Origin: Reichenbachiella versicolor
Lineage (GTDB): Bacteria > Bacteroidota > Bacteroidia > Cytophagales > Cyclobacteriaceae
Length of the DNA: 64,000 nucleotides
Assembly: GCF_003171675.1 (NCBI RefSeq)
Contig: NZ_QFZQ01000008.1
Coordinates: 62,001 to 126,000 of the forward strand
Direction of reading: 5' to 3'
The translations under genes were made by a program, and so were the position numbers. Shown here piece after piece: positions 26,038 through 31,031 of the stretch; positions within the stretch are counted from its first letter, which is position 1; every line of letters begins with the position of its first letter. The notes under the pieces were generated by a model, which was given only the letters and a program-made list of their open reading frames with translations, had not been told where the DNA came from and did no database searches.

Positions 26038-27798
26038 TTGGAACACACTAAGCTTAATATTCTAATCTTAGAAGACTCTGTTGAAGATGCCGAAATGGCA
26101 ATTTATGAAATCAACAAGGCAGGTTTTGATAACGACTATATCAGAGTGGATACTTTGGATGAGTTCAAAGAAAAGCTTTTTGATTTTCTCCCACACTTAA
26201 TTATTTCAGATTATAATCTTCCGGACTGCACAGCCATAGATGCTTTTCAGTTAATAGGAGAGATTGATATTCCTTTTATAATAGTGTCAGGCACGGTTGG
26301 GGAGAAGAATGCTGTTGAAGCCTTGAAAATGGGAGTTACGGACATCGTGTCCAAGGATAGTTTATCTATGCTTCCGCTGGTCATTGAACGCGCGATGAAC
26401 GAAAAAAAGATCAATCGCGAAAAGAAATCAGCTGAACATGAGCTTATTCTAAATAAGGAAAGGTTAGAGCTTGCTCTAGAAGGTACGGATATGGGAGTTT
26501 GGGATTTAGATTTCATGTCTAATACTATAGTCTATAATAATAAAAGCCTTTCAATACTTGGCTTATCAGAGGAGGATGCCATTTTGGACTTTAAGTACTT
26601 TCAAGAAAAAAGTGAAACAATAGATGAAGATGTGGTCAAAGCTATGCAGGATGTGATTGAAGAACGCGCTCCTAATTTTGATCATGAATTTCCTATTCAT
26701 CGTCATGGTGATACTAGTAAGAGATGGGTATTGGCTAGAGGAAAAATTACAAGATACTCATTAGATAAGCGTCCATTGAGAGCTTCAGGGACGGTAATAG
26801 ATATTACTTCTAGAAAACTGTCTGAAGAGAAGCTTAAAAAAAATCAAGCGATTCTTGAGAACGCTGAGGCAGTGGCAAGACTAGGAAGTTTCGAATGGAA
26901 TTCTAGACAATCATCAATGATGTTTTCGGAGGAATTTAGAAACATTTTCGAAATCAAAGAGCATCACAGTCTGACTGAGATATACATGGAAAGGGTGCAT
27001 CCTCAGGATCAACCCTATGTAAAAGAGACACTTCTTTCAAAAAAGAAATTCTATGATATAGAACATAGACTGCTCTTCGATGAAGATAGAGTGAAAATTG
27101 TCAGAAATTCAGGTTACATCACTACAGATAAACAAGGTAAGGTAACCACAATTATGGGTGTAGTTCAGGATATTACTGAGCAAAGAGAGATTACTCGCTC
27201 TATATATAATGCCCAGCAAGAAGAACGCGCTAGAATGGGTAGAGATATACATGATGGTATAGGTCAGATGTTGGTCGCTGCTAAATTTAAACTTTCCTGC
27301 ATAGATATTGACAAGCCTGTTTTAGCTAATGCTAAGGATGAAGTGGAGGAGTTACTGGCGACTACGCTTGAAGAGGTTAGAAGAGTATCTAGAAATCTGG
27401 CTAACCGACATTTGGAAGATTTTGGATTGAAGAAAACTCTAGAGTACTTTATAGAAGAGACTCGAGCAATAGGAGACTTTCACTTGGATTCATATATTGA
27501 TTTACCAGATGAATATGATTTGGAACTGTCGACTACGATATATAGAATTGCTCAAGAAGCGCTTAATAACGTAATTAAATACGCCAAGGCCACCAACGTT
27601 TCTATTAGTGTAGAAACAACTCGCGACAACATCATTCTAGAAGTAAAGGATGATGGGATAGGTTTCGACACTGAAACTAAGTGGAATGGTATAAAGAATA
27701 TGAAAGAAAGGACATCTTTGCAAAACGGGCATTTTGAGATTGATTCTGTCCCAGATAAAGGTACCTTAGTAAAATCTTGGTTTCCACTTAATAACTGA
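26038..27798 (+). CDS. Receiver-PAS-PAS histidine kinase of the NarL-partner (HisKA_3) type
   Basis: 586 residues from a TTG start. Residues 1-125 are a receiver domain with Asp58 in LIISDYNLPD. Two PAS/PAC domains follow (about 140-265 and 275-385). The dimerisation domain is HisKA_3: EERARMGRDIHDGIGQM with phosphoacceptor His405, and the C-terminal ATPase has AQEALNNVIKYA and DDGIGFD. The absence of membrane segments suggests a cytosolic relay protein. It sits between a membrane kinase and a LuxR-type regulator, 3 bp before the latter. Signal flow membrane kinase to receiver to own His to regulator is inference. Confidence 0.88.
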   Translation: MEHTKLNILILEDSVEDAEMAIYEINKAGFDNDYIRVDTLDEFKEKLFDFLPHLIISDYNLPDCTAIDAFQLIGEIDIPFIIVSGTVGEKNAVEALKMGVTDIVSKDSLSMLPLVIERAMNEKKINREKKSAEHELILNKERLELALEGTDMGVWDLDFMSNTIVYNNKSLSILGLSEEDAILDFKYFQEKSETIDEDVVKAMQDVIEERAPNFDHEFPIHRHGDTSKRWVLARGKITRYSLDKRPLRASGTVIDITSRKLSEEKLKKNQAILENAEAVARLGSFEWNSRQSSMMFSEEFRNIFEIKEHHSLTEIYMERVHPQDQPYVKETLLSKKKFYDIEHRLLFDEDRVKIVRNSGYITTDKQGKVTTIMGVVQDITEQREITRSIYNAQQEERARMGRDIHDGIGQMLVAAKFKLSCIDIDKPVLANAKDEVEELLATTLEEVRRVSRNLANRHLEDFGLKKTLEYFIEETRAIGDFHLDSYIDLPDEYDLELSTTIYRIAQEALNNVIKYAKATNVSISVETTRDNIILEVKDDGIGFDTETKWNGIKNMKERTSLQNGHFEIDSVPDKGTLVKSWFPLNN

Positions 27799-27801
27799 TC
27801 T

Positions 27802-28458
27802 ATGTCGAAAATTAATATCCTAGTAGTAGATGATCATTCTCTTGTAAGAGAAGGTATAATCACGATGCTATCCATCTATGATGAGTTCAATATCATAGGT
27901 GATGCTGAGAGTGGTGAAGAAGCATTAAAAAAAGTAGATGATAATCTGCCAGACGTAGTACTAATGGATATCAATATGCCAGGTCTAAATGGTATTGAGA
28001 CTGCAAAGAAGCTAATTGCTGATTATCCAGATATCAAAGTAATTATGCTATCCATGGACGTGACTCAAGATCATATTTCAGAAGCCATCAAAGCTGGGGT
28101 AGCGGGTTATCTTGCCAAGGATACTAAAAAGGAACTTCTCGCTGAAGGAATCAAAAAAGTAATGCAAGGCGAGCAATATTTCGGAGAGAAAGTATCTCAG
28201 GTCATTTTTAAAGGATTTTACAAGCAAAGCAAGGGAGAGAGAGCTGCAAGTGAAAATAAAGATCTTAGTAAAAGAGAAATTGAAGTACTTCGTCAGATCG
28301 CAACAGGTTTATCAAATAGAGAAATAGCTGATAAACTTTTTATTAGTATTCGCACCGTTGATGCTCATAGAAACCATATCATGCAAAAACTCAATTTGAA
28401 AAGCACAGCTCAACTAGTAAAATATGCCATTAAAGAGAAAATAATCGAGTTGGATTGA
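27802..28458 (+). CDS. NarL/FixJ-family response regulator
   Basis: 218 residues. Receiver domain at 1-120 with acidic pair Asp10/Asp11, phosphoacceptor Asp56 (VVLMDINMPG), and the usual Lys in GYLAKD. A LuxR-type helix-turn-helix lies at about 155-210 (LSKREIEVLRQIATGLSNRE). It follows the HisKA_3 kinase by 3 bp and is its probable cognate output, acting as a DNA-binding transcription factor. The regulon is unknown. A terminator follows at 28535. Confidence 0.93.
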   Translation: MSKINILVVDDHSLVREGIITMLSIYDEFNIIGDAESGEEALKKVDDNLPDVVLMDINMPGLNGIETAKKLIADYPDIKVIMLSMDVTQDHISEAIKAGVAGYLAKDTKKELLAEGIKKVMQGEQYFGEKVSQVIFKGFYKQSKGERAASENKDLSKREIEVLRQIATGLSNREIADKLFISIRTVDAHRNHIMQKLNLKSTAQLVKYAIKEKIIELD

Positions 28459-28574: not shown

Positions 28575-28754
28575 GCCTTATTCCCTACACCGTTTTTAAA
28601 AAAACTATGATTTCAGTCAATTGAGGCAGGTTTTTGTTAGTTTTTTTCGTAAAAAACTTTTTACGAAAATCCTCTATTTCAGAGCCCTCTCAACTGTTCT
28701 ACTTTTGAATTGTGATTAATTAAATGATTTACTCACAACTAAAGCAAACAAGTC

Positions 28755-29174
28755 ATGAACGGATATTTTATCAGACCATCGAGAGTGACACCATCTATAT
28801 ACTTCGATCCAAAAAAAGGGATCTTTGATATGAGGGGTAAATCGAATCCTGAGAATCCAAATGCATTTTATGACTATGTTTTGAAAAGCTTGGATGCATA
28901 TGCTGAACTAGATGGGGACAGTACGATGACTACCAACTTGGCTTTCGAGTATTATAATACTAGTTCTTCTAAGTACTTATACATGTTCATGCAAAAATTA
29001 GCGATGATAGATGGAATGGGTAAAAAAGTAACAGTTAATTGGTTCTTTGAACAAGGAGACGAAGATATGAGAGAAGCTGGTGAAGAGTTGGAAGGATTCT
29101 TTGACATGAGATTCAACATTAAAGAAGTTTCGAAAATTAACGCAGTAAAGGCTACTCAGATAGCAGCTGCATAA
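28755..29174 (+). CDS. DUF1987 / SiaC-family regulatory phosphoprotein
   Basis: 139 residues, one DUF1987 domain. Recognised by SIYFDPKKGIFDMRGKSNPE at about residues 15-34 and the central LAFEYYNTSSSKYL. In Pseudomonas SiaC is toggled by the SiaA phosphatase and SiaB kinase and, when unphosphorylated, activates the diguanylate cyclase SiaD. The Ser/Thr-rich segment here could hold the phosphorylation site. No siaB or siaD gene adjoins it; a PP2C/STAS/kinase switch lies 8 kb away at 36930-39746. The 3' untranslated region carries four structured tandem repeats beginning 2 bp after the stop. Confidence 0.8.
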   Translation: MNGYFIRPSRVTPSIYFDPKKGIFDMRGKSNPENPNAFYDYVLKSLDAYAELDGDSTMTTNLAFEYYNTSSSKYLYMFMQKLAMIDGMGKKVTVNWFFEQGDEDMREAGEELEGFFDMRFNIKEVSKINAVKATQIAAA

Positions 29175-29175
29175 A

Positions 29176-29468
29176 GATACGGGATAATACAGGTGGATAA
29201 AGAGTCGTTGCAATGCGATGGCTCTTTTTTAAATCATCTCTTTATCAAAAGATACGGGATAATACAGGTGGATTAAAGGGTCGTTGCAATGCGATGGCCC
29301 TTTTTTAAATCACTTACATTATCAAAGATACGGGATAATACAGGTGGATAAAGAGTCACTGCAACGGTGGTGGCTCTTTTTAAGTTCAGTACATATTATC
29401 AAAGAAATTAAAGACAGGGATAATACAGGTGGATTAAAGGGTTGCTGGAAACGGTAGCTCTTTTTTTT
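29176..29468 (+). repeat. Four tandem ~76-bp structured repeats, each a conserved box plus covarying hairpin and U-tract
   Basis: Units begin at 29176, 29251, 29327 and 29413. Each opens with a near-identical box, including GGGATAATACAGGTGGAT, then a 12-13-bp hairpin and a T-run. Hairpin arms are 29199-29211/29215-29227, 29275-29287/29291-29303, 29350-29362/29367-29379 and 29436-29447/29452-29463. Stem changes are compensatory: AAAGAG/CTCTTT in units 1 and 3 becomes AAAGGG/CCCTTT in unit 2. Loops differ (AAT, AAT, AACG, GAAA). The array fills the 358-bp gap between the SiaC-like and lolD-like genes. Pairing was checked by eye. Confidence 0.88.
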
Positions 29469-29519
29469 GCATTTTTTTCCACTCTTCTTAAAAACAGCAA
29501 AGTGAATAGTTATAACTTC

Positions 29520-29527
29520 TATATTTG
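29520..29527 (+). promoter_or_regulatory. TAnnTTTG element of the lolD-like gene
   Basis: TATATTTG matches the Bacteroidota -7 element exactly. The ATG at 29533 lies 6 bp downstream, implying a nearly leaderless transcript. No TTG was found at the usual distance upstream. Confidence 0.5.
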
Positions 29528-29532
29528 CTGAC

Positions 29533-30186
29533 ATGCTGCAAGCCTATAATATTCATAAGTCCTATAGCGATTTAAATGTATTGAAAGGTATTGACCTTTC
29601 TGTAAGCAAAAACGAGGTCATATCTATTGTTGGGGCCTCAGGAGCTGGTAAAAGTACTTTGCTCCAAATTTTAGGGACTTTGGATAAACCAGATATTGGT
29701 GACATTACTATCAATAACCAATCTATTAATGGTATGAAACCTAATCAATTAGCTGCTTTTAGAAATAAGCAAATTGGTTTCGTTTTTCAATTCCACAATT
29801 TGCTTCCAGAGTTTTCTTTAGAAGAAAATATCTTAATACCGTCCTATATAGGAGGTAATTCAGGTAAAAAAGTCAGTGACTATGCTGATCAACTTATGCG
29901 AATGTTGGGCGTGTATGATAGAAGAACGCACAAACCATCACAATTATCAGGAGGGGAACAGCAACGTGCTGCTGTAGCAAGGGCTCTAATAAATAAACCA
30001 AGTATAATTTTTGCGGATGAGCCTAGTGGAAATTTAGATTCGGTAAATGCTAATCACTTGCACTCAATATTTTTTGAACTACAAAAACAATTGGGACAGA
30101 CTTTTGTGATTGTTACACATAATAAAGAGCTGGCTGACATGACAGATAGAAAAATAGTCATGGCAGATGGTAAAATCTCAGAATAA
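29533..30186 (+). CDS. lolD: LolD-like ABC transporter ATP-binding protein
   Basis: 217 residues. Walker A GASGAGKSTLLQ, Q-loop FVFQFHNLLPEF (the LolD/MacB-type text), signature QLSGGEQQRAAVARAL, Walker B IIFADEPSGNLD, switch VTHNKELAD. LolD powers the LolCDE complex, which releases lipoproteins from the inner membrane for transport to the outer membrane. The membrane partner (LolC/E) is not adjacent, so MacB-type or FtsE-like use cannot be excluded. The stop shares one base with the start of the EamA gene (TAATG), so the two are translated together. Confidence 0.8.
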   Translation: MLQAYNIHKSYSDLNVLKGIDLSVSKNEVISIVGASGAGKSTLLQILGTLDKPDIGDITINNQSINGMKPNQLAAFRNKQIGFVFQFHNLLPEFSLEENILIPSYIGGNSGKKVSDYADQLMRMLGVYDRRTHKPSQLSGGEQQRAAVARALINKPSIIFADEPSGNLDSVNANHLHSIFFELQKQLGQTFVIVTHNKELADMTDRKIVMADGKISE

Positions 30187-31031
30187 TGATTGGGTCCAAG
30201 GGAATTTGGTATATGCTAATTGCAGCATTTACCTTTTCACTTATGAAAGTGAGTGTCAAGCTAGTATCTCATTTACCAGCGGTGGAAGTTGTATTTTTCA
30301 GATCTTTGGTTTCACTGGTTCTGAGCTTGTTTTTTCTTTTTAGAAGTAAAGTTCATGTCTTCGGAAATAATAAGAAGTTGCTTCTGATGAGAGGGGTATG
30401 TGGGGCATTGGCTCTTACGATGTATTTTTCTTTGATTCAACAGATTCCTTTAGCTGCAGCTGCGAGCATGCAATATCTTTCGCCAATTTTTACTGCTGTA
30501 CTGGGTGTTTTTATAGTAAAGGAGAAAGTTTCTTGGAAGCAATATATATTTTTCGGAGTTTCCTTTATAGGTGTACTACTTATTCAAGGAGTAGACGCTA
30601 GAGTTAGCCTTATTCATTTACTTATAGGCGTTACTTCGGCAGTATTTACAGGATTAGCCTACAATTTAGTTCGTAAGTTAAAAACCACAGAACACCCTTT
30701 GGTTATCATACTTTACTTCCCGATGGTAACTATGCCTTTTGCAGGTATCTATTGTCTTTTTAACTGGGTACAACCACAGGGTTTGGATTGGCTTGTGCTT
30801 TTTATGGTAGGTACTCTGACTCAGATAGCTCAATATTTTCTAACTCGTTCTTATCAATTGGAGGAAGTTTCCAACGTGTCCATTGTTAATTATACTGGAA
30901 TGCTCTATGCAGTTGTGTTTGGTTTATTGGTTTTTGGAGAATCATATTCATGGTTGAGCTATACTGGAATGGGTTTAATTGTAACAGGAGTCTTATTAAA
31001 TATTCTTTACAAGAATCGATTAAAAGTATAA
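30186..31031 (+). CDS. EamA-family (DMT superfamily) transporter
   Basis: 281 residues with ten hydrophobic segments in two EamA halves (about 1-140 and 145-281). The first half has the FFRSLVSLVLSLFFL region and the second LTQIAQYFLTRSYQLEEVS, both typical of DMT permeases. Family members move amino acids, nucleosides or other small metabolites; substrate cannot be inferred. Translationally coupled to the lolD-like gene by a 1-base overlap. Confidence 0.85.
   Translation: MIGSKGIWYMLIAAFTFSLMKVSVKLVSHLPAVEVVFFRSLVSLVLSLFFLFRSKVHVFGNNKKLLLMRGVCGALALTMYFSLIQQIPLAAAASMQYLSPIFTAVLGVFIVKEKVSWKQYIFFGVSFIGVLLIQGVDARVSLIHLLIGVTSAVFTGLAYNLVRKLKTTEHPLVIILYFPMVTMPFAGIYCLFNWVQPQGLDWLVLFMVGTLTQIAQYFLTRSYQLEEVSNVSIVNYTGMLYAVVFGLLVFGESYSWLSYTGMGLIVTGVLLNILYKNRLKV

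Follow-up and report, generated by a model that had tools for sequence, protein, structure and literature searches.

Tandem box-plus-terminator units next to a two-component system in Reichenbachiella, a probable new regulatory RNA family

Two groups of small RNAs provide the closest described counterparts to the locus analyzed here. The FopS RNAs of Bacteroides form a multicopy family of ~65-70 nt transcripts, each with a single-stranded conserved 5' seed and a Rho-independent terminator; according to the accessible part of the source, (i) the members are encoded at separate loci and have their own promoters, (ii) they bind RbpB and target SusC-type mRNAs, and (iii) the seed query covered positions 1-21 and one member, FopS-14, is derived from a 3' UTR (PMC11697453). 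The CcsR1-4 (cuckoo) RNAs of Rhodobacter are four homologous sRNAs located in the 3' UTR of ccaF1, a DUF1127 host gene; as far as the accessible parts of the two reports describe them, they are transcribed from one promoter, cut out by RNase E, and followed by a terminator at the 3' end of the operon (PMC8625941, PMC10253847).

The window, a 64,000-nt stretch of the Reichenbachiella versicolor genome, contains four tandem units at positions 29172-29472 of the plus strand, which the repeat finder identified as one four-copy family (Table 1). The preliminary description had reported four tandem RNA-like repeats with compensatory stem changes at 29176-29468, downstream of a SiaC-like gene. Repeat finding, folding and a box scan confirm this observation, the coordinates are correct within a few bases, and the upstream gene indeed matches the SiaC family (PF09345, 1.3e-32). 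The array is flanked on the 5' side by a two-component system and siaC, and on the 3' side by the gene of an ABC transporter ATPase that we take to be LolD-like (lolD below).

Table 1. Coordinates of the array units and of the neighboring genes and putative promoter elements in the window
Feature	Position	Strand	Basis or detail
Hybrid sensor protein (receiver, PAS, HisKA_3 kinase)	26038..27798	+	domain search
NarL/LuxR-type response regulator (RR)	27802..28458	+	Response_reg and GerE
CCTCTATTT element upstream of the promoter; possible activator or -33 region	28671..28679	+	putative role
TACTTTTG, TAnnTTTG-type -7 element of the promoter shared by siaC and the array	28700..28707	+	conservation, consensus fit
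siaC-like gene, 139 aa	28755..29174	+	PF09345, 1.3e-32
Array unit 1	29172..29236	+	box 29181-29198, hairpin 29199-29227, U-tract
Array unit 2	29247..29312	+	box 29256-29273, hairpin 29275-29303, U-tract
Array unit 3	29323..29388	+	box 29332-29349, hairpin 29350-29379, U-tract
Array unit 4 (last)	29408..29472	+	box 29417-29434, hairpin 29436-29463, longest U-tract among the four
TATATTTG, own promoter element of lolD, located 3' of the array	29520..29527	+	five bases before the ATPase start
ABC transporter ATPase, 3' of the array	29533..30186	+	ABC_tran, 3.2e-33
EamA transporter, 3' of the ABC ATPase gene	30186..31031	+	domain search

Each unit consists of a box, a 12-13 bp hairpin that begins within 0-1 nt of it, and a U-tract. 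The box had been described as nearly invariant; over 18 nucleotides, GGGATAATACAGGTGGAT, it is identical in all four window units. The siaC stop codon and the first box are separated by six bases, and the unit spacing is 76, 76 and 85 in the register of the repeat finder. Four box matches were found in the window at up to 3 mismatches versus 0.03 expected, and none of 100 shuffles reached four. The hairpins fold with z-scores of -3.77, -3.83, -2.85 and -4.25 in units 1 to 4, and their loops read AAT, AAT, AACG and GAAA, respectively. An A-U pair in the stem of unit 1 is G-C in unit 2 (GAG/CTC versus GGG/CCC); stems and loops are as the preliminary description had them. The features of intrinsic terminators, namely a G+C-containing stem directly before a U-tract and a conserved structure, are present as predicted structure; the consensus terminator scan flagged two of the four window units, and in the missed ones the stem pairs probably consume part of the T run.

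At up to 2 mismatches, the genome of the window holds the four array copies of the box and one 2-mismatch site, antisense within a 438-codon open frame, and thus a mobile or genome-wide repeat was rejected. A translated mini-ORF was rejected as well, the reading frames varying among the units (by eye).

Units of this type occupy one locus in all eight Reichenbachiella genomes searched. They total 29, with 4, 5, 1, 7, 1, 6, 1 and 4 units in genomes G000 to G007, where G000 is the genome of the window. In the search of this genome and 58 relatives, the exact box was found in all seven congeners, at one locus and in 1-5 exact copies each. The box is exact in 25 of the 29 units and in the first unit of every genome, an invariance that for the core is partly by construction, since the unit-picking pattern required ACAGGTGGAT. 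A covariance model built from the four window units and not tied to the exact box recovered all 29 of these units, with none at the locus lacking the box; further copies with covariation exist in relatives, so that this half of the refuting condition in the preliminary description does not hold. In G003, ordinary units alternate with three whose box begins CAGATGAT or CAGATGAC, and the box of the last unit in G005 carries one change. The seven-unit array of G003 (L016:1553-1921) looks like a two-unit repeat, normal plus second box type, duplicated as a block. Within a genome the units are most alike (by eye). Three species have a single unit, and therefore the tandem arrangement is not essential.

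Outside the genus, no exact box was detected in 51 non-congener relatives, 9 of which have single 2-mismatch sites. In a sample of 382 other genomes of the family (390 including the eight of the genus), none of the matches listed is exact and none stand in a row. Three of these genomes (G148, G158 and G257) have 4-5 box-like matches each at up to 2 mismatches, at positions beyond those listed, which may be either coincidental matches in coding DNA or a diverged array. The scan of GTDB genomes, which may omit near relatives of the window, returned five stretches, three of them single matches in unrelated records, and all 14 stretches from IMG/VR were likewise single matches in unrelated records. 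All 17 single matches sit in open frames of at least 142 codons; one of them (L063) has a downstream T run and folds weakly. The covariance model gave 17 further matches, two in the genus and 15 outside it, that are weaker than nearly all of the 29 units. The surroundings of 16 of them were read and contain no box (best sites with 6-8 mismatches, the shuffled median being 8); the exception, L051, is located close to the end of its contig. By these searches, the family is apparently specific to Reichenbachiella, and the Bacteroidota-wide scope envisaged at the outset was too wide, the array being recognized in one genus only.

The promoter elements were compared with the -7 consensus of Bacteroidota, TAnnTTTG in the accessible part of the source (PMC7366714). 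Both TACTTTTG at 28700 and TATATTTG at 29520 match this consensus. The former reads TACTTTTGA in all eight species and TAGTTTTG in G071, an outgroup from a related genus. The CCTCTATTT element is conserved in the same nine genomes and is a good candidate for the RR binding site. Its conservation and the adjacency of the regulator gene make the RR a candidate activator of the array promoter. On the plus strand, TAnnTTTG is absent from the interior of all eight arrays, and thus the units are apparently served by one upstream promoter. A reverse-strand promoter role for the box was discarded, minus-strand TATCTTTG being found inside the arrays of only two of the eight genomes. A small hairpin, GTCAC-n-GTGAC, was noticed by eye just 5' of the first unit in three species that lack siaC (L013, L016, L018); the G003 version reads AATCAC/GTGATT, and GTCA...TGAC was also seen 5' of the first box in G004 (both by eye).

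The same elements bear on the serial attenuator raised in the preliminary description, here taken more widely as serial attenuators or riboswitches in the lolD leader whose box senses a ligand or an anti-terminator. Terminator-like hairpins do lie directly 5' of an ABC transporter gene, and tandem copies could sharpen a response. However, a promoter element, TAT[A/C]TTTG, separates the array from lolD in all eight species (it precedes lolD in G071, too), in RNAalifold on 21 full repeats the box does not pair alternatively with the hairpin, and within the window no RNA-switch family of Rfam scores at or above its gathering threshold. We regard the attenuator as very improbable because of the intervening promoter element.

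The relation between the array and siaC varies within the genus. The gene lies directly upstream of the array in four of the eight species, among which only the window's genome has more than one unit, and is absent between the RR gene and the array in G001, G003, G005 and G007, where promoter and array are kept. The earlier placement of the array in a 3' UTR thus holds for half of the species; in the other half, the same promoter leads through a leader of ~100 nt straight into the array. The end of this leader resembles the siaC 3' end of sister species (by eye). In the tree of RR and LolD (436 columns), the four species without siaC form one clade (98%), and siaC is present at the locus in the other four species and in G071, so that one loss is the simplest account. 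This clade has 4-7 array copies. Judged from these gene contents, the array has outlived its host gene, and, as array and promoter are kept without siaC, it is not just a siaC 3' UTR.

A general association of the box with siaC was also rejected. Each genome has 4-8 SiaC matches, including the locus copy where present; among the loci examined, the box accompanies the four locus copies, and the 15 paralogues have no downstream box. At seven SiaC-family loci (L191-L194, L196, L197, L202), a short ORF of similar sequence starting with M[K/R]PK[F/L] follows (by eye). The outgroup G071 keeps the kinase-RR-siaC-lolD order, and two terminator-like hairpins in a row without a box were seen by eye between its siaC and lolD (L100, 771-858, minus strand). 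This layout is a possible pre-array state and suggests that the terminator came first and acquired its box in the Reichenbachiella lineage.

Conservation of the units was assessed against the background of neighboring genes. In the RR gene, identity at fourfold-degenerate sites ranges from 25 to 44% across the 28 genome pairs, which is near saturation, and RR and LolD together give 25-40%; the first-unit box is identical at 18 of 18 positions across the eight genomes. In the stem alignment, 96.0% of 374 cells are paired, and in 8 of 14 pairs both sides have changed. None of 500 shuffles reached either this paired fraction or this number of both-sided changes, and sliding the 3' side of the stem left 42-75% of cells paired. 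One unit, the third of G007, folds poorly (-5.9 kcal/mol). As far as sequence comparison can tell, the box-plus-terminator family is real and selected.

The weight of these two lines of evidence is unequal. The paired stem changes emphasized in the preliminary description reflect real covariation; taken alone, they would also fit an ordinary conserved intrinsic terminator, any of which would show the same. The box is strong evidence and exceeds what such a terminator explains: its invariance, which terminators do not need, bears out the earlier statement that the repeats are more than a terminator. This comparison bears on the simplest alternative, a multiplied intrinsic terminator that only insulates the siaC or RR transcript from lolD and was amplified by unequal crossing-over, the box having no role. 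Every unit is terminator-like and rightly placed, the units of one genome resemble recent duplicates, and the hairpin pair of G071 stands between siaC and lolD with no box at all. Yet an 18-nt box 5' of the stem has no role in termination and is nevertheless exact in all eight first units despite near-saturated fourfold sites, and no box occurs at the 15 siaC-paralogue loci or the 16 weak model matches. We therefore consider a plain terminator unlikely.

To search for partners of the box, we scanned the eight Reichenbachiella genomes with the anti-box, and no site common to the genus was found. A 14-mer anti-box at up to 1 mismatch has 29 sites outside the arrays (2 exact and 27 with one mismatch) versus 12 for the reversed 14-mer. 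Of the 20 sites examined, five are antisense to one conserved protein. This protein is presumably threonyl-tRNA synthetase. A few sites (L137, L140, L146) are close to a potential start codon in one species, and none was shown to be shared. The combination of ATCCACCTGT with an ATG within 30 nucleotides downstream gave 63 rows, 52 of them outside the arrays (some sharing a site), versus 18 for the control, with recurrences only within G002, G004 and G006; the version with the ATG upstream gave 61 rows versus 25, recurring in at most three genomes. In all three comparisons the anti-box count exceeds its control; a reversed pattern controls poorly for coding DNA, and the excess is to be read with that limit.

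The lack of a base-pairing target in these searches would also fit another explanation, namely that the box is a protein-binding site and the RNA acts as a CsrB/RsmZ-like sponge, titrating an RNA-binding protein through multiple sites on each molecule. The identical boxes, each containing two GGA, recur in variable copy number, and the invariant 18-nt core would suit protein binding no less than seed pairing. In the Gac/Rsm layout, a sponge RNA is found beside a LuxR-type response regulator, and a regulator of this type adjoins the array. The candidate proteins argue against this explanation: CsrA was found in none of 19 genomes, including all eight of Reichenbachiella, by a search that was positive in 3 of 14 control genomes; Hfq was found in none of the eight Reichenbachiella genomes; and RRM_1 matched in one of nine genomes, only inside a 623-aa frame, although divergent RRMs could escape such a search. 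The single site in three species is also poor for titration. We thus hold the sponge to be rather unlikely. Of the readings that the preliminary description had put side by side, a family of small RNAs remains the best one, and the protein-binding array is weakened by the failure to find CsrA.

Overall, we lean towards the array being an operon of FopS-like seed-plus-terminator small regulatory RNAs beside a two-component system, and it probably represents a new family of regulatory RNAs. For this model we infer transcription, separate RNA release, control by the RR, and base-pairing. The pathway would start from the single Bacteroidota-type promoter (TACTTTTG), probably under control of the adjoining two-component system, and transcription would proceed via siaC, where present, into 1-7 units, each with a predicted single-stranded box and its own putative intrinsic terminator. 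Partial termination, RNA processing, or both would yield RNAs of ~60 nt with the same box near the 5' end. By analogy to the Bacteroides FopS seed, the box would most likely base-pair with target RNAs, and the copy number may set the dose.

Predicted accessibility of the box was compared among the units. In a single terminated unit, the mean unpaired probability is 0.71-0.87 in 25 of the 29 units; in units 2, 4 and 6 of G003 and unit 3 of G007, the box is predicted to be less open (0.30-0.50). When the sequence past the hairpin is included, the predicted value falls to 0.24-0.68. Compared with shuffled spacers, the real ones give values below the mean in 19 of the 21 repeats and within the lowest tenth in only 7; RNAalifold on the 21 full repeats gave no consensus pairing for this effect. 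The folding offers a weak hint that read-through may pair the box with the next spacer and hide it, termination then switching the box on.

Serial strong terminators should starve the later units, and the sRNA-operon model must invoke read-through. The model is further weakened by the outcome of the anti-box searches, by the single unit in three species, by the less open box in longer transcripts, and by the search for sRNA partners, in which Hfq was found in none of eight genomes and RRM_1 in one of nine. Possible but doubtful is a specific form of this idea, a terminator ladder in which polymerases from the two-component-driven promoter stop at successive terminators and the array length sets the number of box copies per transcript. 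If true, the array would also exemplify a 3' UTR regulator that turned into a stand-alone noncoding gene upon deletion of its parent ORF, siaC.

To our knowledge, the sRNA systems characterized so far in Bacteroidota beyond Bacteroides are few. The literature search, with most subscription papers outside its coverage, returned no paper joining 'Reichenbachiella' and 'small RNA' and no such paralogous, tandem or multicopy sRNA family. A genus-wide family whose seed-like box is invariant, whose copy number is graded, and whose host ORF was naturally deleted in one clade would be a tractable case, in which sRNA action without known chaperones and the transition from a 3' UTR to an independent noncoding gene can be addressed; the eight genomes are a ready-made copy-number series (1, 4, 5, 6, 7).

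Comparison of the array with known RNAs revealed partial similarity to several of them. Within the window, a tRNA is the only Rfam match at or above a gathering score; five families match the array region below theirs. The best of these, BTnc231 (RF04180), shares hairpins with a U-tract, but its match at 29221-29380, starting in the last part of unit 1 and reaching unit 3, scores 27.3 bits versus a gathering score of 80.4. No entry for the FopS/GibS R1 seed stood among the Rfam matches up to E=5 in the library copy used, which may lack the FopS model. With CsrB/RsmZ, the array shares repeated GGA-containing motifs and the adjoining LuxR-type response regulator. However, CsrA was not found, and the box stands 5' of a terminator-like hairpin, whereas the GGA motifs of CsrB sit in hairpin loops.

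The FopS family and the array have in common, from the FopS features accessible to us, the conserved single-stranded 5' box followed by a terminator, both in Bacteroidota; here this architecture is a predicted structure, with the box half or more paired in 4 of the 29 units. Unlike FopS, the units stand in tandem and have no plus-strand promoter element of the TAnnTTTG type each, and no RRM_1 match, as a sign of an RbpB-like partner, was found in eight of the nine genomes, where divergent RRMs could have been missed. Like CcsR1-4, as far as those sources describe them, the array has homologous units in a row, apparently behind one promoter; a small-protein gene, siaC, lies directly 5' of the array in four of the eight species, and only in the window's genome does it precede more than one unit. 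The array differs in that every unit has a terminator-like hairpin with a T run rather than the 3' end of the operon only, and that the host gene encodes SiaC (PF09345) instead of DUF1127, belongs to another phylum, and is absent in half of the species. As the array departs from both FopS and CcsR1-4 in at least one of the features compared, we assign it to neither; by these analogies, the architecture of its units is FopS-like and their arrangement is CcsR1-4-like, apart from the terminator-like hairpin that each unit carries.
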